In this document: positions 29,446-39,146 of the stretch, piece by piece
Layout: every line of letters begins with the position of its first letter
How positions within the stretch are numbered: position 1 is the stretch's first letter
From: Patulibacter minatonensis DSM 18081
GTDB lineage: Bacteria > Actinomycetota > Thermoleophilia > Solirubrobacterales > Solirubrobacteraceae
NCBI RefSeq assembly: GCF_000519325.1
Contig: NZ_KI912613.1
Span: 207,631-271,630 of the forward strand
Direction of reading: 5' to 3'
Length of the DNA stretch: 64,000 bases
The notes under the pieces: model-generated
Seen by the model: only the letters and a program-made list of their open reading frames with translations
Database searches by the model: none
Told to the model about the DNA's origin: nothing
Program-made: the position numbers and the translations under genes

Positions 29446-30384
29446 TCAGTCGCCGGGACGCGGCAGGGGCCCACCGGACGCCGGGCTCGGCATCCGGATG
29501 CCCGGCGGCGGGAAGCAGTCGCCGTCCGGCACCGGGCGGTCGGTGCGGGCCGTGACCGTGCACTCGAGGCCGCCGCGGTACGTCACCCGCACGGACGACC
29601 ACCGCTCCATCGAACGCAGGACGAACAGGTAGGCGCCGCTGTCGTCGCGGCCGGGCACGACCGCCCGGCGATCGCTCCCGAGGAGCTCGACCTTCACGGC
29701 CTCCGCGCCCCCGAAGCCGTAGATCAGGGTGCGCGCCGTCCCCCTGCCGCACACCGGGAGGCCCCGGAGCCGACGGCGGGTCTGCGGGGACTGCGTCGCC
29801 GGGTCGACCCGTTCGACGCACCCGCCGACGGCCCCGCCGGGTCTGCCGGAGTAGCCGCTGGCCGGGATGCCCGACTGCAGCCCGGAGCTATAGAGCTGCC
29901 CGCCGTCGAGCAGGCCGCCGCAGCTGCCGGACTGCTGCCGATCCGCGGGATTCGGGTGGAACCGGCCGTCGTCCCGGAACGCGCCGTCCCGGCCGACCAC
30001 GCCGAGCTCGCCGCGCTGGACCCGGCCGAACTGCTCGCACGCCAGGCCGTCGCGGGTGCGGAAGATCCGGAGGCCCCACGGCGGTCCGCCGTCCGGGTCG
30101 GCGGCCCGGACCTTCATGACGCGGGTGCTCCCGGGCGAGATCGACGCGAGTCCCCCGGCGAACGGCCGGACGGACCGAGGCACGGGCTCGCCGCGCTCCA
30201 AGAGACCGGTCGCGGCGACGGCCGCCCCGGTCCCCCCGAGCCCCGCGAGCACGACGAGGACGCCCAGGGGCGTGCGCCAGAACCGTCGGGGGGCCGGGGT
30301 CGGGGCGGCGGGCGCGGGGACACCGTCGTGCGCCCGCTGCGCGGCGTCGCGAAGTGCCTGCTCGAGCGTCGGGAGGCGGCTCAT
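29446..30384 (-). CDS. membrane protein coupled to sigma factor, possible anti-sigma
   Basis: 312 residues. A cytoplasmic N-terminal segment of about 55 residues (SRLPTLEQALRDAAQRAHDG) precedes one membrane helix (PLGVLVVLAGLGGTGAAVAATG) and an extracytoplasmic region of about 230 residues with several cysteines (SGSCGG, GGCVERV, LPVCGRG, LECTVT). This is the topology of anti-sigma factors. It has no zinc-binding HXXXCXXC motif, so assignment rests on topology and on the four-base overlap (ATGA) with the sigma gene. Confidence 0.65.
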   Translation of the reverse strand: MSRLPTLEQALRDAAQRAHDGVPAPAAPTPAPRRFWRTPLGVLVVLAGLGGTGAAVAATGLLERGEPVPRSVRPFAGGLASISPGSTRVMKVRAADPDGGPPWGLRIFRTRDGLACEQFGRVQRGELGVVGRDGAFRDDGRFHPNPADRQQSGSCGGLLDGGQLYSSGLQSGIPASGYSGRPGGAVGGCVERVDPATQSPQTRRRLRGLPVCGRGTARTLIYGFGGAEAVKVELLGSDRRAVVPGRDDSGAYLFVLRSMERWSSVRVTYRGGLECTVTARTDRPVPDGDCFPPPGIRMPSPASGGPLPRPGD

Positions 30385-30935
30385 CGGAGCTCCTGGAGTC
30401 GGGTGCGGAGCGTGCGGAGGCCGCGGCTGACGCGCTGCCGCGCGAGGCTCTCGGAGCACCGGAGCGCCGCGGCGAGCTCGCGGTACTCCTGCTCGTCGAC
30501 GACGCGACCGGCGACGGCGAGCCGCAACTCCTCGGGCAGGGCGGCGAGGGCGTCCAGCGCAGCGGTCCCGGTCAGCGCGTCGACGCGGGCGAGCTCCTGG
30601 TCGGTGAGCACGACGCGCTGCATCCCGAGCGTCCGGCGCGCGGCGTCGTCGACGCGACCCCGCTCGAGGCTCTGGGCGAGCAGGTGCCGGGCGATCCCGA
30701 ACAGCCAGCCGCGGACCTCGCCGCGGTCCGGATCGAAGCCGCAGCGCCCGGCCAGGGCGGCGGCGAACGTCTCGGCCGCCAGGTCAGCCGCGATCTCGGC
30801 CGACGGCACCCGCCTGCGGAAGTACCCGAGGATCGCGTCCTCGTGGCGCGTGTACAGGGCGGCGAAGGCGTCGCCGTCGCCGGCGAGGAGTTCGGCGTCC
30901 GACCGCGCGGCGGTGCGTCTCAGGACCATCACCAC
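30381..30935 (-). CDS. ECF-type RNA polymerase sigma factor
   Basis: 184 residues. Region 2 spans about 15-85 (DAFAALYTRHEDAILGYFRRRV, VRGWLFGIARHLLAQ) and region 4 about 125-180 (ALPEELRLAVAGRVVDEQEYRELAAALRCSESLARQRVSRGLRTLR). There is no region 1 or 3, as in extracytoplasmic-function sigma factors. GTG 30935, GTG 30932 and ATG 30929 are all possible starts, changing only the first two residues. The overlapping downstream membrane protein is the likely regulator. Confidence 0.9.
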   Translation of the reverse strand: MVMVLRRTAARSDAELLAGDGDAFAALYTRHEDAILGYFRRRVPSAEIAADLAAETFAAALAGRCGFDPDRGEVRGWLFGIARHLLAQSLERGRVDDAARRTLGMQRVVLTDQELARVDALTGTAALDALAALPEELRLAVAGRVVDEQEYRELAAALRCSESLARQRVSRGLRTLRTRLQELR

Positions 30936-31019: not shown

Positions 31020-31049
31020 TTGACACCGTCCACCGGGCGAGCCTAGAGT
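31020..31049 (+). promoter_or_regulatory. consensus sigma-70 promoter of the RR-MinD-transporter operon
   Basis: TTGACA at 31020-31025 and TAGAGT at 31044-31049 with an 18-base spacer. The -35 matches the consensus exactly. Transcription would begin at about 31056, leaving only a few bases before the TTG start codon at 31059. Confidence 0.75.
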
Positions 31050-31058
31050 CCGCACCCC

Positions 31059-31757
31059 TTGAGCGACCCACCGGCGCAGCTGATCGTCGTCGACGACGAT
31101 CCCATCAACCGCCGGCTGCTCGCGAGCTACCTGGAGCGGGAGGGCCACGCCGTCGCCACCGCGAACGACGGCCGGGCCGGCTGGGAGCTCGTGCGGAGCA
31201 GGCCGTTCGACGTCGTCCTCCTCGACGTGCTGATGCCGGAGATGGACGGCTACCAGGTGCTCGAGCGCATCCGCGGCGACGAGGACCTGCGCCACCTGCC
31301 GGTGATCATGATCTCGAGCGTCGAGGACATGCAGAGCGTCGTGCGCTGCATCGAGCTCGGCGCCGACGACTACCTCCCCAAGCCGTTCAACCCGGTCCTG
31401 CTGCGGGCGCGCATCGCCGCCGGGCTGTCCCGCAAGCGCCTGCACGACCTCGAGCGCGAGTACCTCGAGCAGGTCGAGCACGTCGTGACCGCCGCATCGG
31501 CGGTCGAGGCCGGCACGTTCGCACCGGACGCGCTGGACGGCGTCGCCGGGCGCGACGACGCGCTGGGCACCCTCGCCCGCGTCTTCTCGCACATGGCCGC
31601 CGAGGTCCAGGCCCGCGAGCGCGCCCTGAAGCGGCAGGTCCAGGAGCTGCGGATCGAGATCGACCGGACCCGCGCGGACCGCCAGGTCGAGGAGATCACG
31701 GGCACCGACGCGTTCCGCGACCTCCAGCGCCGCGCGGCGGAGCTCCGGTCCCGATGA
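31059..31757 (+). CDS. response regulator with coiled-coil output region
   Basis: 232 residues. The receiver domain (1-120) has the acidic triad D12-D14, phosphoacceptor D56 in VVLLDVLMPEMDG and K108 in YLPKPFN. The output is not DNA-binding: residues 125-232 are helical, with a HAMP-like stretch (LARVFSHMAAEVQARERALK) and the segment RQVQELRIEID, ending FRDLQRRAAELRSR. It starts with TTG just after a consensus promoter. Its stop overlaps the MinD-like ATPase gene (ATGA), so the receiver probably acts by protein contact with that ATPase or the transporter-like protein. Confidence 0.87.
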   Translation: MSDPPAQLIVVDDDPINRRLLASYLEREGHAVATANDGRAGWELVRSRPFDVVLLDVLMPEMDGYQVLERIRGDEDLRHLPVIMISSVEDMQSVVRCIELGADDYLPKPFNPVLLRARIAAGLSRKRLHDLEREYLEQVEHVVTAASAVEAGTFAPDALDGVAGRDDALGTLARVFSHMAAEVQARERALKRQVQELRIEIDRTRADRQVEEITGTDAFRDLQRRAAELRSR

Positions 31758-32509
31758 GCCGCGTCGTCGCGGTCCACTCCTTCCGCGGAGGCACCGGCAA
31801 GTCGAACACCACCGCGAACGTCGCCGTGATGGCCGCCCGTCGCGGGCTGCGGGTCGGCGTCGTCGACACCGACATCCAGTCGCCCGGCATCCACGTCCTC
31901 TTCGGCATCGACCAGGCCACGATCGGCCGGACGCTGAACGACCACCTCTGGGGGCGCTGCGCCATCACCGAGGCCGCGGTGGACGTCACCGCGGGGCTCG
32001 ACCCGACCCTCGAGGGCCGCGTCTTCCTCGTCCCGTCGAGCATCGACGCCGGCGACATCGCCCGCGTCATGCACGACGGGTACGACGTCGCGCTGCTGCA
32101 CGAGGGCATCCGGACGCTCGTGGACGAGCTGCGGCTCGACCTGCTGCTGCTCGACACCCACCCAGGCCTCAACGAGGAGACCCTGCTGTCGATCGCGGTC
32201 TCCGACACCGTCGTCGTGGTGCTCCGCCCCGACCAGCAGGACTACGAGGGCACGAGCGTCACCGTCTCCGTCGCCCGCCGGCTCCAGGTCCCCCACATGC
32301 TGCTGGTCGTCAACAAGACCCCCGCCGTCTTCGACCACGCCGACGTCGAGGAGCGCGTCCGCGCGGCGTACGACTGCGAGGTCGCCGCGGTCCTCCCCCA
32401 CTCCGACGACCTGATGGCGTACTCCAGCCAGGGCGTGTTCTCCCTGAGCCGGCCCGACCACCCGGTCGCGGCGATGTACGACGCCCTCGCGGCGCGCATC
32501 GTCGGCTGA
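31754..32509 (+). CDS. MinD/ParA-family ATPase
   Basis: 251 residues. The deviant Walker A motif is HSFRGGTGKSNTTANVAV (Arg in place of the usual signature Lys of KGGxGKT), followed by GVVDTDIQSPGIHVLFG for the switch and LLLLDTHPGL for Walker B. No C-terminal amphipathic membrane-targeting helix like that of MinD is obvious. Such ATPases dimerise with ATP and position or switch partner complexes. There is no minC/minE, parB or flagellar gene nearby; its partners are the response regulator (overlapping) and the large membrane protein seven bases downstream. Confidence 0.88.
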   Translation: MSRVVAVHSFRGGTGKSNTTANVAVMAARRGLRVGVVDTDIQSPGIHVLFGIDQATIGRTLNDHLWGRCAITEAAVDVTAGLDPTLEGRVFLVPSSIDAGDIARVMHDGYDVALLHEGIRTLVDELRLDLLLLDTHPGLNEETLLSIAVSDTVVVVLRPDQQDYEGTSVTVSVARRLQVPHMLLVVNKTPAVFDHADVEERVRAAYDCEVAAVLPHSDDLMAYSSQGVFSLSRPDHPVAAMYDALAARIVG

Positions 32510-32516
32510 GCGCGCC

Positions 32517-35435
32517 GTGCCCGCCGACGCGTTCGACGAGCTCTTCGACCGCGAGCGCCTGCTCTCCGGCCTGCCCGAGCGCCGGGCCGCGACGGTCCTC
32601 TTCCTGATCGAGGGACGCACCGCGCGGCTCGCCGCCCGGTCGCGGCAGGCGATGCGGCGCCTCGCCGGGCGGGAGGCGGCGGAACGCCGGGAGCTCGCCT
32701 ACGTCGAGGCCTTCGCCCTCGGCCGCGAGCCCCCGCGCCGGCCGACGGTCCAGGACCTCGAGCTCCACGCACGGGAGTGGGCGGCGCTCGTGCCGCGCAA
32801 CCCGCGCGTGCAGGCAGCGCTCGCCCACCGGCTGGGGGAGAAGCACCCGCTGCCCCGCGAGCGCGTGCCCGGGATCCGGACGGCCCTCGGGCTCGACGAC
32901 CCGCGCGTGGCCGACGCCTTCGCGGCCCTGTACGACCGGCCGGTCGACTCCGTCTTCGCCCCGCGGACGAGCATCCGCGAGCGCCGGCGGTGGGTCGCGG
33001 CCGCGACGACCGCGCGCTTCGACCGGCTCTCTCCGTTCTGGACCGCCTACGCCCTGACGCTGACCGAGACGGTCGGCTCGACGATCGTCGCGCTCCCGAT
33101 CGCGGTGGCCGCCGTCGGGCCGATGCCGGCGATCGGGATCCTCGTCGTCCTCGGGCTGGTCAACGTCCTCACGGTGGCGCTGATGGCCGACGCCCTGACG
33201 CGGACGAGGACGATGCGCTTCGGCGACGCCTACATCGGCCGGGTGGTGACCGACCTGCTCGGCCGGACCGGCGCGTTCGTGCTGACCGCAGGCCTCGTGG
33301 CGATCTGCCTGCTCGGGATGGAGGCCGACTACATCGGGGTCTCCAGCACGCTCTCGAGCGCGTTCGGGGCGCACGAGCTCGTCTGGGTCACCCTGATGTT
33401 CGCGGTCGAGCTCTGGTACCTCCGCCGTGGGTCGATCGACGCGACCGTGACGTCCGCGCTGGTGGTCGGCGCGATCAACATCGCCCTGATCCTCGCGATC
33501 AGCGGGCTCGCGTTCTGGCACCTCGACCCGGGGAACCTCTCGCACGTCGACCTGCCGTTCGTGAGCGGGAACGGGTCGGACGTCACGTCGCTCGGGCTCG
33601 TCTTCGGCGTGACCTTCACGGCGTACTTCGGGCACCTCTCCGTGAGCAACTGCGCCCGCGTCGTGCTCGCACGGGACCCGAGCGGCGGGTCCTTGATGCG
33701 CGGGGTCGTCGCCGCGCAGCTGACCGCGATCGTGCTTTACGTCCTGTTCGTGCTGGCCGTGACCGGCGCGGTGTCGCCGGGGACGCTGGCGCGCGAGACC
33801 GGCACGGCGCTGGAGCCGCTGTCGGACCAGGCCGGCCCGGCGGTCCTCGCGTTCGGCGGGATCCTCGTCGTCCTCGGGATGGGCATGGCGTCGATCCACT
33901 CGGGCCTGGCGCTGTTCTACCTCGTGCAGGAGCGGCTCCCGGCGCGCGGTCCCCGGACGCTCGTCCTGCCCCGCCGGGGTGCGCGCGCCGTGCTCGCCGG
34001 GCGCGGGGCCGACAGGACGCGGATCGCGCTGACCTACGAGGGTCGCTCGTCGGCCGGTGCGCGCTTCCGGGTCGAGGCCGAGGGCGCCGACGGCCGCGTC
34101 CGCAGCGGCGTGGCGACGGCAGGCACGCGGTGGTCCCCACTGACGGCAGCCCCGCTCGCGGAGCTCGGCTCCGGCGCCGCGCTCGAGCTGACGATCCTCG
34201 CGGCGACGGAGCACGACGTCCGGTTCGAGGTCCGGACCACCATGCGGCTCCGCTACGACGGCGCGTACGACACGTCGGCCGCATCCCTGACCGACCTGCT
34301 CGCCGCGACGGACGAGGACGCCGCGATCGTCGCCTGGCTGCTGCGGCACCCGGAGTCGACGGTGGCCGACGTCGCCGCGCACGAGGGCGTCGAGCCGTCC
34401 GTGGCCGCGGAGCGGCTGGAGCGGCTGACGGACGCCGGTCTGATCACGACCTGGGGGGCCGGCGACGGTCGGCGGTTCGGGGCGCGGCCGGGGCGCAGAC
34501 GCCCGGCGCGGCTGCCGGTCGAGCTCCTGGGACTCCTCGACGGTCCGGGCGACGAGGCGGAGGGACCCGCGCGGCCGGCGGCCGGAGCGGCGCCCCCGAC
34601 CGGCCTCCCCGCCCCCGGCCGACGCGGCGCGCTCGCGGAGGCGGTCCGGGACCGGCTGTCCGGCGATCGCGCCCGTCTGGCGGCCGGTGTCGCCCCCGTG
34701 GTCGTGGTCTTCGCCGGCGCCGTCTGGCAGTCGCTCGCCGGCGAGATCTCGCTGGCCGACGTCCTGAGCGTCCTCGGCGTCGTCGTGGTCGCCCTGCTGG
34801 CCGGGGTGTTCCCGGTGCTCCTGAACCTCGCCGGCCGCAACCGGGGCGAGCTCCTCGGGTGGGGCTACCGGGTGCCCGCGCAGCGCTGGGTGCTCGGTGC
34901 GGTCTACGGCTTCTCGCTGGCGGCGGTGGCGCTGCACGGGCTCGTGCTCTGGGACGACCTCCCGCGCCGGATCACCGCGCTGGGCGTCGTCGCGCTCGCC
35001 CTCGTCATGACGTGGTCGATGGTCCGTGGCGGCGCGTTCCGACCCGGGGCGACGATCGAGCTCCGGCACGACGACGCATCGGGTACCACGACGTTCCACG
35101 CCGTCGACGCCGGACGGCCCGGGAACGTCGCCGTCGCGCTCGACTACGCCGACGGGACGTCGGTCCACCTCGAGGGGGCGCAGGGGCCGGTCGCGGACCT
35201 CGACGGCCTGCGGCGGGCCACGTTCATGCCCGGCGGCCCCGCCGAGGCGGGCCGGCGGGCGTCGTCGGAGCTCGCCGTCTGGGTCCACCGGATCACCGAG
35301 GAGGACGACTCGGTGGCGCTGGACGCGCACCTCGAGACGCCGGGCGACGCCGTGGACGGCGTGCCGCTGGACGAGGACGGCGTCGCCCGGGTGCCGGGCG
35401 ACGGCGCCGTCGTGTCGGTCGTCTTCCCGGGCTGA
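32517..35435 (+). CDS. composite APC-superfamily transporter-like protein with wHTH domain
   Basis: 972 residues in several blocks: a soluble N-terminus (1-165), about ten membrane helices (171-472) resembling amino-acid permeases of the APC/AAAP type (ALTLTETVGSTIVALPIAVA, VTFTAYFGHLSVSN), a beta-sandwich-like region (480-590), a winged-helix-like domain (600-655, STVADVAAHEGVEPSVAAERLERL), a Pro-rich linker, four more helices (720-835) and a C-terminal beta domain. The permease core keeps the Gly-rich helix-1 break, so it may transport or may have become a sensor. It begins with GTG seven bases after the ATPase gene. The domain mixture is not one I recognise. Confidence 0.75.
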   Translation: MPADAFDELFDRERLLSGLPERRAATVLFLIEGRTARLAARSRQAMRRLAGREAAERRELAYVEAFALGREPPRRPTVQDLELHAREWAALVPRNPRVQAALAHRLGEKHPLPRERVPGIRTALGLDDPRVADAFAALYDRPVDSVFAPRTSIRERRRWVAAATTARFDRLSPFWTAYALTLTETVGSTIVALPIAVAAVGPMPAIGILVVLGLVNVLTVALMADALTRTRTMRFGDAYIGRVVTDLLGRTGAFVLTAGLVAICLLGMEADYIGVSSTLSSAFGAHELVWVTLMFAVELWYLRRGSIDATVTSALVVGAINIALILAISGLAFWHLDPGNLSHVDLPFVSGNGSDVTSLGLVFGVTFTAYFGHLSVSNCARVVLARDPSGGSLMRGVVAAQLTAIVLYVLFVLAVTGAVSPGTLARETGTALEPLSDQAGPAVLAFGGILVVLGMGMASIHSGLALFYLVQERLPARGPRTLVLPRRGARAVLAGRGADRTRIALTYEGRSSAGARFRVEAEGADGRVRSGVATAGTRWSPLTAAPLAELGSGAALELTILAATEHDVRFEVRTTMRLRYDGAYDTSAASLTDLLAATDEDAAIVAWLLRHPESTVADVAAHEGVEPSVAAERLERLTDAGLITTWGAGDGRRFGARPGRRRPARLPVELLGLLDGPGDEAEGPARPAAGAAPPTGLPAPGRRGALAEAVRDRLSGDRARLAAGVAPVVVVFAGAVWQSLAGEISLADVLSVLGVVVVALLAGVFPVLLNLAGRNRGELLGWGYRVPAQRWVLGAVYGFSLAAVALHGLVLWDDLPRRITALGVVALALVMTWSMVRGGAFRPGATIELRHDDASGTTTFHAVDAGRPGNVAVALDYADGTSVHLEGAQGPVADLDGLRRATFMPGGPAEAGRRASSELAVWVHRITEEDDSVALDAHLETPGDAVDGVPLDEDGVARVPGDGAVVSVVFPG

Positions 35436-36554: not shown

Positions 36555-39146
36555 CTACCGGGAGTCGCGTCGGCCGCCCTCGACCTCCGCGACCACCTCG
36601 TCCAGCGCGACGCCGAGCTCGTCGAGCAGCTCGGCGAAGCGCGGCCACTCCTCCGACCCCAGGGCCGCGAGGCTCTCGAGCTGCTGGGCGCGGTCGGCGA
36701 GGTGCCCCGCCCCGACCGCGCGCGCGGCGCCGCGGACGCGGTGGGCCCGTGCGCGGACGTCGACCGCCTCGCGTGCGGCGAGCGATCCACGCATCGCCTC
36801 GAGGTCGTCGCGCGTGGTCACCAGGAACTCGCGGAGGACGTCGGCGGCGAGCTCCTCGTCACCGCCGGTGAGCTCGGCCAGGACGCTCGGGTCGATCGGG
36901 CCCGCCGGGCCGGCCTGCTCGCCGCCGTCCCCCGTCGCCGGGTCGTCGTCGGGTGCCTCCGCGGCCGTCCAGTCGAGCGCCGGCAGCCACTCGCGCAGCT
37001 TGCCCGCGAGGAACGGGATCGTCGTCGGCTTCGCGGCGAAGTCGTCCATCCCCGCCGCCCGCGCCCGCTCCGGCTCGCCGGTCATCACGCTGGCGGTCAG
37101 TGCGACGATCGGCGTGCGCCCCGCACCCGCCGCGGCTTCGTCCTCGCGGATCGCGACCGCGAGCGCGAGCCCGTCCATCCGCGGCATGTTCAGGTCGGTG
37201 AGGACGAGCGCGTAGCCCCCGTCACGGAAGCGCTCGAGGCCCTCCTGCCCGTCGACGGCGACGTCCGCCCGGAAGCCGATCGTCTCCAGCTGGTGGACGA
37301 GCACCGTGCGGTTGACCGGGTGGTCCTCGACGAGCAGCAGCAGGCTGCCCTCCTGCAACGCGGCCTCGCGGGACGGCAGCGCCCGGCTCGTCGGTGCGCC
37401 CGCCACCGGGCCGCCGGCCGTGTGCTCGACGAGCGCCGGGTCCCCCAGCGCGAGCGGGACGACGAGCCGCATCGTCGTGCCCTCGCCGGGGGCGCTCTCC
37501 ATCGTGACGTCGCCGCCCATCAGGACCGCGAGGCGCTTGGCGATGACCAGGCCGAGGCCCGTCCCGCCGTAGCGGCGGCTCGTCGAGCTCTCGGCCTGCG
37601 CGAACTCCGCGAACAGCCGCTGCTGCTGCTCGGCGTCGATCCCGATGCCGGTGTCGCTGACGGCGACCTCGACGGTCTGGACGCCCGGCTCCGCGCCGGT
37701 CACGCGGACGTGGACCTCGATCCCGCCGACCTGCGTGAACTTCACCGCGTTGGAGAGGAAGTTCCCGATGATCTGCCGCAGCCGCAGCGGATCCGCGACG
37801 TGCGCCGGGGCGAGCCGCTCCTCGACGTCGCCGGTCAGCAGCAGGCCCTTCGACGAGGCGGTGTGGACGAACGTGTCGACGCAGGCGCGGACGATCTCGC
37901 GCACGTCGACCGTCGCGGGGTCGAGCTCCAGCCGCTCGGCCTCGATCTTCGACAGGTCGAGGATGTCGCCGACGATCTGCAGCAGCGACCGCGCCGAGCT
38001 GTCGGCCGTGGCGACCATCTGGCGCTGTGACGGCGTCAGGTCGCCGCGGGAGAGCACCTCGAGCATGCCCGTCACGCCGATCATCGGGGTCCGCAGCTCG
38101 TGGCTCATCGCGGCGAGGAACGTCGACTTCGCGCGGTTGGCGTGGTCGGCGGACTCGCGGGCCAGCACGGCCTCCTGCTCGGCGCGCTCCCGGGCCCCGA
38201 CGTCCGCCTCGATCGCGACGGCCATGGCGTTGAACGACCCCGCGACGCGCTCGAGGTCCGAGACGCCGTGGACCTCGGCGCGGTGCGCGTAGTCGCCGCC
38301 GGCGATCCGCCGGGTCGCGCCCGCCAGGCGGTCGAGCGGGCGCAGGACGAGCCGGGTCAGCAGGACCAGCGCCGCCGCACCGACGAGGACGAGCAGGACG
38401 AGCACGAGGATCTCGATGCCGACCAGGCGCTCGTTGTGGTCCCGCGCCCGGTCGACCTCGCGCGTCGTCCGTGCCGCCACGAGGTCCGTGAAGCGGCGGA
38501 TCGACCGCATGATCCTGCCCTTGGCACGGAGGTACGCCGGGTCGATCAGCCGCTGGTACTGCGGCTGGACGTCTGAGCGGTACCCGGCGTCGACGCCGCG
38601 CGCGATCCGCCGGCCGACCCGCGTCATCACGGAGCCCTCGGTCCGGGCGAGGACCTCGGAGGCGTCGAGCGAGGCCTGCAGCGCGCGGAACTCGGCGGGC
38701 GCGAACTCCGCGGCGCGCAGCTGCGAGGTCAGGGACTGCTTCGGCCCGTAGCGCACGAACCCGGTCCCCTCCGCGAGGACCCGGTCCCAGAACGAGCTGT
38801 CGTAGTCGAGCGGCCGCGGGGCGGTGCCCGCCCGGATCCGGAGGATGTCCTCGTAGTAGGCGCGATAGCGGGGCCGGCCGCTCGCGACGTACAGCCGCAC
38901 CATGTTCGTGAGGTCGTTCGAGCTCTGGCGGACGCCGTCGGCCAGCACGAACGACTGCGTGCGCCGGTTCTCCGCACGGGTCTGGGAGCTGGCGCCGCGG
39001 AGCTGCATCGACGCGACGACGATGAGCGCCGCGACGAGCAGGGCCAGCGCGCCGAGGAGGAGCGCGAGCAGCCGCCGGAGCGACGGGAGCGTGCGGTCGC
39101 GGCGCGGAGGGTGCGCGGCCTCGGCGGCGCCGGCGGTGTCGTCCAC
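36555..39146 (-). CDS. hybrid sensor histidine kinase with receiver and HPt domains
   Basis: 863 residues. Helices at about 22-46 and 243-266 flank a helical sensor domain of about 195 residues. HAMP follows (268-320), then HisKA with H349 in AAMSHELRTPM, HATPase (N box NFLSNAVKFTQ, G box GGTGLGLVIAKR), a receiver domain (about 590-715, phosphoacceptor in ALVLTDLNMPRMDG) and a C-terminal HPt with the His in ARAHRVRGAARAVG. It can run a full internal phosphorelay and then needs a separate response regulator, none of which is adjacent. GTG 39146 (VDDTAGAAEA) is the most likely start; there is no good ribosome site. Confidence 0.9.
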   Translation of the reverse strand: MDDTAGAAEAAHPPRRDRTLPSLRRLLALLLGALALLVAALIVVASMQLRGASSQTRAENRRTQSFVLADGVRQSSNDLTNMVRLYVASGRPRYRAYYEDILRIRAGTAPRPLDYDSSFWDRVLAEGTGFVRYGPKQSLTSQLRAAEFAPAEFRALQASLDASEVLARTEGSVMTRVGRRIARGVDAGYRSDVQPQYQRLIDPAYLRAKGRIMRSIRRFTDLVAARTTREVDRARDHNERLVGIEILVLVLLVLVGAAALVLLTRLVLRPLDRLAGATRRIAGGDYAHRAEVHGVSDLERVAGSFNAMAVAIEADVGARERAEQEAVLARESADHANRAKSTFLAAMSHELRTPMIGVTGMLEVLSRGDLTPSQRQMVATADSSARSLLQIVGDILDLSKIEAERLELDPATVDVREIVRACVDTFVHTASSKGLLLTGDVEERLAPAHVADPLRLRQIIGNFLSNAVKFTQVGGIEVHVRVTGAEPGVQTVEVAVSDTGIGIDAEQQQRLFAEFAQAESSTSRRYGGTGLGLVIAKRLAVLMGGDVTMESAPGEGTTMRLVVPLALGDPALVEHTAGGPVAGAPTSRALPSREAALQEGSLLLLVEDHPVNRTVLVHQLETIGFRADVAVDGQEGLERFRDGGYALVLTDLNMPRMDGLALAVAIREDEAAAGAGRTPIVALTASVMTGEPERARAAGMDDFAAKPTTIPFLAGKLREWLPALDWTAAEAPDDDPATGDGGEQAGPAGPIDPSVLAELTGGDEELAADVLREFLVTTRDDLEAMRGSLAAREAVDVRARAHRVRGAARAVGAGHLADRAQQLESLAALGSEEWPRFAELLDELGVALDEVVAEVEGGRRDSR

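Follow-up and report, generated by a model that had tools for sequence, protein, structure and literature searches.

Background

ATPases of the MinD/ParA kind are known as positioning machines. We studied one of them, encoded by the second of three coupled genes (response regulator, ATPase, composite permease) in a stretch of 64,000 nucleotides from the genome of Patulibacter minatonensis DSM 18081 (contig NZ_KI912613.1, positions 207,631 to 271,630 of the forward strand). This whole stretch is called the window, and its first letter is position 1 of all coordinates below. The three-gene operon is one version of a widespread and apparently undescribed signalling module; its ATPase family belongs to the ParA/MinD kind, and there is a real chance that it forms a distinct signalling class.

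The closest described relatives are MinD, FlhG and FleN, which share with the window ATPase the fold, the length and the Walker A' DTD and DTHPG motifs, and which give its best profile matches in the PDB. The window family differs from them by the replacement of the signature Lys with Arg, by forming a clade of its own and by its proposed partner, a portable receptor tail. ParC-ParP and PpfA resemble the present case in that a MinD/ParA-type ATPase is linked to signal-transduction proteins; the tail of the window family, in contrast, has no Pfam family, and the Walker A motif of PpfA is KGGVGKT (PMC9178275), unlike the RGGTGKS found here. Among the neighbours examined, we saw neither MinC/MinE or flagellar genes beside the ATPase nor any CheA, CheW or MCP genes. 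The loss of the signature Lys has precedent, as the same paper (Table 1, PMC9178275) gives RGGVGTT, with Arg, for BcsQ and SGGQGKT, with Ser, for McdA. BcsQ, however, loses the P-loop Lys too, while the window ATPase keeps it, and the papers compared describe neither BcsQ nor McdA together with HAMP-tail receptors.

On the side of the permease, the transceptors CbrA (SLC5-STAC-kinase; PMC13022988) and SLC38A9, the latter being among the fold matches of our permease model, also combine a transporter fold with appended cytoplasmic domains in a signalling context. The window permease is different in having no fused kinase, in its AAAP/aromatic-permease-like core, in its inserted beta and winged-helix domains and in its pairing with a MinD-type ATPase. 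The open-access literature, including the available parts of PMC10241942, PMC9178275, PMC11109136, PMC8195603 and PMC13022988, yielded no description of the ATPase family or of the tail, most subscription papers lying outside that search.

Results

The operon and its ATPase

The response regulator gene (232 amino acids, TTG start) occupies 31059 to 31757 on the forward strand and shares an ATGA overlap (31754-31757) with the ATPase gene (251 amino acids, ATG start, 31754 to 32509, forward), which is followed after a gap of 7 bases (32510-32516) by the permease gene (972 amino acids, GTG start, 32517 to 35435, forward). This coupling had been described in the original prediction, which was made from the sequence letters of the window, and an independent codon-usage gene caller picked the same three genes, at agreeing coordinates, among many overlapping GC-rich open reading frames. 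The consensus promoter proposed with them is equally in place: a site of sigma-70 type, TTGACA-18-TAGAGT (31020 to 31049, forward), matches 10 of the 12 consensus bases, and 0.0 such sites are expected in shuffles. As the regulator's TTG start follows the -10 box after only about 9 bases (31049-31059), the operon mRNA may be nearly leaderless. The operon does not stand out by its GC content.

The Walker A motif of the ATPase is HSFRGGTGKSN (HSFRGGTGKS at 31775 to 31804, forward): it retains the P-loop Lys16 and has Arg11 where the superfamily signature KGGxxGK[ST] has its first Lys, the rest of that signature being present. This replacement, already noticed in the original prediction, is found in 17/17 aligned members. 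When the paralogues are counted with the family, RGGTGK is kept in 113 of 134 copies, and most of the others are degenerate (RRGTGK, RPGTGK etc.), a few being truncated gene calls. The homology to ParA/MinD extends over the full domain (Pfam ParA, 1.1e-16; minD_arch, 9e-23), and the NCBIfam cut-offs are missed (minD_bact, 51.4 against 212.9 bits; minD_arch, 80.7 against 201.75 bits).

A profile of the 17 members compared with the PDB finds archaeal MinD first (1hyq, 5.5e-26), then FlhG/FleN, and Soj at 1e-11. In the tree a 99/97 branch separates the family from an outgroup made of ParA, Mrp and other paralogues from two genomes (G000/G238), some branches of which are very long. The ATPase thus does not cluster with ordinary ParA and belongs to a MinD-type family. 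On inspection of the alignment we saw no clear C-terminal extension of the ATPase (A1), and neither a membrane-targeting sequence nor a DNA-binding patch was identified, no rigorous test having been made for either.

No family member was found among 60 relatives reaching to order level; of 396 genomes of the phylum, 9 have one. At least 564 genome-contig stretches carry the family, in Chloroflexota, Cyanobacteria, Actinomycetota, Deinococcota and further groups, and the best ones come mostly from Chloroflexota, Cyanobacteria and Thermoleophilia; plasmids of Deinococcus, Rhizobium, Nostoc, Kovacikia, Pseudanabaena and Streptomyces also carry it. Such a patchy distribution suggests horizontal transfer or repeated loss. 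Tandem pairs of a canonical and a divergent copy were seen in G444 (C1:1464580-1466116), G445 (C1:1606768-1608974), G447 (C79) and G450 (C21), and divergent copies often have RRGTGK or something similar in Walker A; these pairs are possibly heterodimers.

The C-terminal tail

The regulator ends in a 48-residue RIEID tail (residues 183-230; 31605 to 31748, forward), which we propose as the ATPase-docking element. The original prediction had mentioned tails of this sort beside MinD-type ATPases in other phyla. An iterated tail profile does find them there: at 59 of 97 loci a neighbour gene of the ATPase carries the tail, and at 28 of these 59 the tail gene directly precedes the ATPase gene on the same strand, in several cases with an overlap of 4 bases. 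The carriers are response regulators, cNMP-binding, dCache-HAMP, GAF and cyclase-FHA proteins and an S-component-like HAMP protein; the tail stands at or near their C-terminus, usually straight after HAMP or another signalling domain. It is a portable module, placed at the C-terminus of varied inputs.

Among the 396 genomes the tail is present in 9, as is the ATPase, and both are present in 8 (nominal Fisher p ~6e-15, uncorrected for phylogeny). These 8 genomes span six families, and in all of them a tail lies at most 5 kb from the ATPase. In 8 further genomes, chosen from the ATPase loci, the tail is present every time, sometimes far from the ATPase, and two of them have it elsewhere in the genome with none near the ATPase locus. 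Searches of Pfam and of the PDB with the tail gave nothing above chance, that is, no family and no solved structure.

The composite permease as a third component

A permease gene adjoins the ATPase gene in G314, G362, G281, G352 and G434, in the Thermoleophilia contigs L045 and L055, in Chloroflexi L065, L091 and L115 and on the Nostoc plasmid L017, and is two genes away in L114. Tail, ATPase and permease are found together in 12 of 13 permease loci, the window included. They follow at least three gene orders (tail-ATPase-permease, ATPase-permease-tail and tail-permease-ATPase) and occur in three phyla, Actinomycetota, Chloroflexota and Cyanobacteria, so that the conserved module conjectured in the original prediction does recur in other genomes. 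The input which bears the tail changes with the locus, being a response regulator in Actinomycetota, a cNMP-binding protein in L065 and L114 and a dCache protein in L017. Since the regulator can be exchanged for other inputs and the permease is only one among many partners, the constant core consists of the ATPase and the tail, often joined by a winged helix.

In the sample of 396 genomes, full-length permeases exist only where the ATPase does. Two other matches were obtained, a fragment in G397, an incomplete genome, and a plain permease of 431 amino acids in G018, which has neither the N-terminal domain nor the C-terminal beta domain nor a neighbouring ATPase, and which we set aside as an ordinary transporter cousin.

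The window permease starts with a helical domain, predicted to be cytoplasmic (residues 1-160; 32517 to 32996; this and the following segments are on the forward strand), which is present in 13 of 14 aligned permeases and for which a Pfam search gave nothing above chance. This domain may be another common partner of the ATPase. A standalone protein of 179 amino acids that matches it is encoded at L042:8238-8777 (reverse strand) in G150, divergently from the ATPase; this genome has no permease. Then come transmembrane helices (TM) 1-8 of a LeuT-fold, AAAP/aromatic permease-like transporter (residues 172-477; 33030 to 33947), a beta-rich domain (about 489-582; 33981 to 34262) which the AlphaFold model gives with moderate confidence and which is missing from shorter homologues, a winged-helix domain (about 590-671; 34284 to 34529), TM9-12 of the same transporter (about 717-839; 34665 to 35033) and a C-terminal beta domain (about 844-969; 35046 to 35423).

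The model of the whole protein (mean pLDDT 74.5, pTM 0.67) has the LeuT-type 5+5 TM fold and aligns with the auxin carrier LAX3 (Z 37.9, rmsd 2.9) over 382 residues spanning 172-816; Pfam Trp_Tyr_perm matches its homologues (3.4e-10 in that of G281). The permease of L091, the gene of which contains scaffold Ns, was left out of structure prediction. As the alignment with LAX3 runs from 172 to 816, the beta domain and the winged helix form an insert after TM8, which makes the later helices TM9-12. The model thus shows one 12-TM transporter of LeuT fold, with an insert (about 478-715) predicted to be cytoplasmic. The permease core, the winged helix and the two beta domains of the original prediction all stand, but the helices it took for extra ones belong to the transporter itself, displaced by the insert. 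The unwound motif of TM1 varies across the permeases (L065, L114 and L115 have a 2-residue deletion in it), and since it is not constant, some members may be pure sensors that do not transport.

The winged helix of the permease is of MarR_2 type (28.3 bits, for a Pfam cut-off of 27 bits). An iterated profile built on it matches small proteins beside the ATPase, mostly of 106-135 amino acids, and gives 61 matches in 46 loci, some of the permeases themselves being included; 38 of the 61 are immediately downstream of the ATPase on the same strand. We read this domain as a protein that is separate elsewhere and would have been fused into the permease here.

The regulator and its candidate phosphodonor

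The receiver domain of the regulator (residues 9-119) is of the ordinary type (Pfam 1.1e-33) and has the phospho-acceptor Asp (D56), the acidic pair and K108. Past the receiver, AlphaFold (pLDDT 87.7) gives helices only (112-151, 156-163, 168-214 and 217-231), in keeping with the helical, non-DNA-binding output announced for this protein: a long helix, a connector and a helix, which are HAMP-like (about 128-182), precede the tail. Pfam HAMP does not match the window regulator itself, in which AlphaFold shows this helix-connector-helix, and matches the aligned region of the G314/G362 homologues at 5e-7.

A hybrid histidine kinase (HK), HAMP-HisKA-HATPase-REC-HPt, recognized by domain search 1.1 kb downstream on the opposite strand (36555 to 39146, reverse), is a candidate phosphodonor. 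We dropped its confident assignment as the cognate kinase, because two similar paralogues exist elsewhere in the genome. A hybrid kinase and/or an HPt gene adjoins the gene of the tail-bearing regulator in L045, L091, L054, G281, G352, G314 and G238; the kinase is HK-REC-REC-HPt in L045 (directly upstream), G281 and G352, while L091 has HK and HPt and G238 has HPt.

Other genes near the ATPase

An extracytoplasmic function (ECF) sigma factor gene, detected by Pfam, is divergent from the operon (30381 to 30929, reverse) and is tentatively considered as possibly linked to it; a one-TM, anti-sigma-like gene lies downstream of this ECF gene (29446-30384, reverse). About 21 Chloroflexota-type loci likewise have a divergent ECF gene ahead of the ATPase. 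These ECF factors are only about 27% identical to that of the window, and the genome has 54 matches to sigma-70 region 2, so that we no longer count the ECF factor as a firm part of the module. An ECF sigma factor, an anti-sigma-like gene and a PrsW-family protease accompany the ATPase in 17-22 loci, and other ATPase loci have SpoIIE/RsbW/STAS partner-switch genes and glycogen genes.

In Anaerolineales (L083, L089, L093, L097, L098, L118 and similar loci) a PrsW-family intramembrane protease, a cNMP-binding tail protein, the ATPase and a small winged-helix gene form a row flanked by an ECF sigma factor and an anti-sigma-like gene, which suggests a regulated-proteolysis output. In L015, L019, L023, L044, L049 and L052 the ATPase sits within a cluster of the type AGE epimerase - STAS - glgX - STAS/RsbW - SpoIIE, common to Deinococcus and Nostoc plasmids, Streptomyces and Chloroflexota. 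On cyanobacterial plasmids (L017, L018, L021) it is beside Nif11/NHLP-type genes for ribosomally synthesized and post-translationally modified peptides, and the tail protein of L021 has an N-terminal Nif11 domain fused to dCache-HAMP. We considered a defence system and dropped it, as there is no consistent effector and CHAT/AAA neighbours occur in single Nostoc loci only; plasmid or chromosome partition was likewise considered and dropped.

Discussion

The best explanation of these data is, in our opinion, a MinD-type ATPase switch controlled by receptors, to which we give about an even chance of being right. From the gene linkage, the co-occurrence, the domain fusion, the invariant motifs and the folds of the parts, which are observed, we infer the following physical contacts and direction of signalling. 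A phosphorelay from the hybrid kinase and HPt would charge D56 of the regulator, and the HAMP-like helices would relay the change in the receiver to the coiled-coil tail at the C-terminus. This tail would be the cognate partner of the ATP-bound dimer of the RGGTGKS ATPase and would set its ATP state or its location, much as ParB, MinE or McdB are partners of other family members. The ATPase would then act on the cytoplasmic domains of the permease (the N-terminal helical domain and the insert with its beta and winged-helix parts), either gating the permease, or reporting its state, or controlling a winged-helix output. We favour this switch because tail and ATPase co-occur, the tail is portable, kinase and HPt genes are neighbours, the permease is linked in several gene orders, and the winged helix stands alone elsewhere and is fused here.

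Several facts weigh against it. At 27 of the 97 ATPase loci the fetched flank contains no tail and no winged helix, the tail is likewise lacking for the Streptomyces-type ATPases, the divergent one of G403 among them, and G238 has HPt and a tail-bearing regulator but no ATPase; the binding partner of the tail might be something other than the ATPase. Moreover, the first-round winged-helix profile matches few proteins and the final one also reaches, more weakly, an ordinary regulator (6e-9), hence the argument drawn from the winged helix owes much to gene position.

An unlikely but serious alternative is that the ATPase distributes or anchors complexes of membrane receptor and permease, with the tail as cargo adaptor, in which case the phospho-signal is carried by the receptor and not by the ATPase. 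ParC and PpfA, which act on chemotaxis clusters, are a precedent; the fold is closest to archaeal MinD and FlhG/FleN; the paradigm of the family is an ATPase coupled to its cargo through a partner protein (PMC10241942, PMC9178275); and many tail proteins are membrane receptors. Many others, however, are soluble (response regulators, cNMP-binding and cyclase-FHA proteins), which is odd for cargo, and the membrane-targeting sequence or DNA-binding patch looked for, without rigorous test, was not identified. With HAMP directly in front of the tail, a relayed signal seems likelier than a static adaptor.

We find it rather improbable that the ATPase, like the antiactivator FleN, holds a winged-helix or sigma-factor output which the receptor tails set free. 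The small winged-helix gene that directly follows the ATPase in many loci speaks for such a transcriptional switch, as do the ECF, anti-sigma-like and PrsW genes of some loci, the SpoIIE/RsbW/STAS genes of others and the profile similarity to FleN, which inhibits FleQ-dependent transcription (PMC9178275). In the window, though, a 12-TM protein carries the winged helix in a loop predicted to be cytoplasmic, which would confine any DNA binding to the membrane; the domain is missing from shorter permease homologues, and the ECF gene, given the number of sigma factors matched in this genome, is maybe a chance neighbour. That the ATPase is an ordinary partition protein, as its Pfam labels (ParA/AAA_31/CbiA) could let one think, or that the three genes are neighbours in an operon without joint function, is very improbable, and on linkage, which recurs across gene orders and phyla, this reading is largely refuted. 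The family also forms a clade separate from ParA and Mrp of two genomes, and its best solved match is archaeal MinD, far ahead of Soj.

The receptor-controlled switch may be one case of something more general, in which the Arg-bearing MinD-type ATPase is a common cytoplasmic transducer for interchangeable receptors that share a docking tail, in parallel with histidine kinases or CheA, each of which serves many receptors. We hold this to be quite possible, at somewhat less than even chances. What we describe is one MinD/ParA-type ATPase tied to plug-in receptors of at least five sensor classes in several phyla, with an unnamed tail of its own and a winged-helix partner. The proposal makes concrete predictions, namely binding of the tail to the ATPase and a role for the invariant Arg. 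If it is true, an ATPase-based route from receptor to output would be added to those known, and functions would be suggested for many genes which are labelled only "MinD/ParA family" or "hypothetical".

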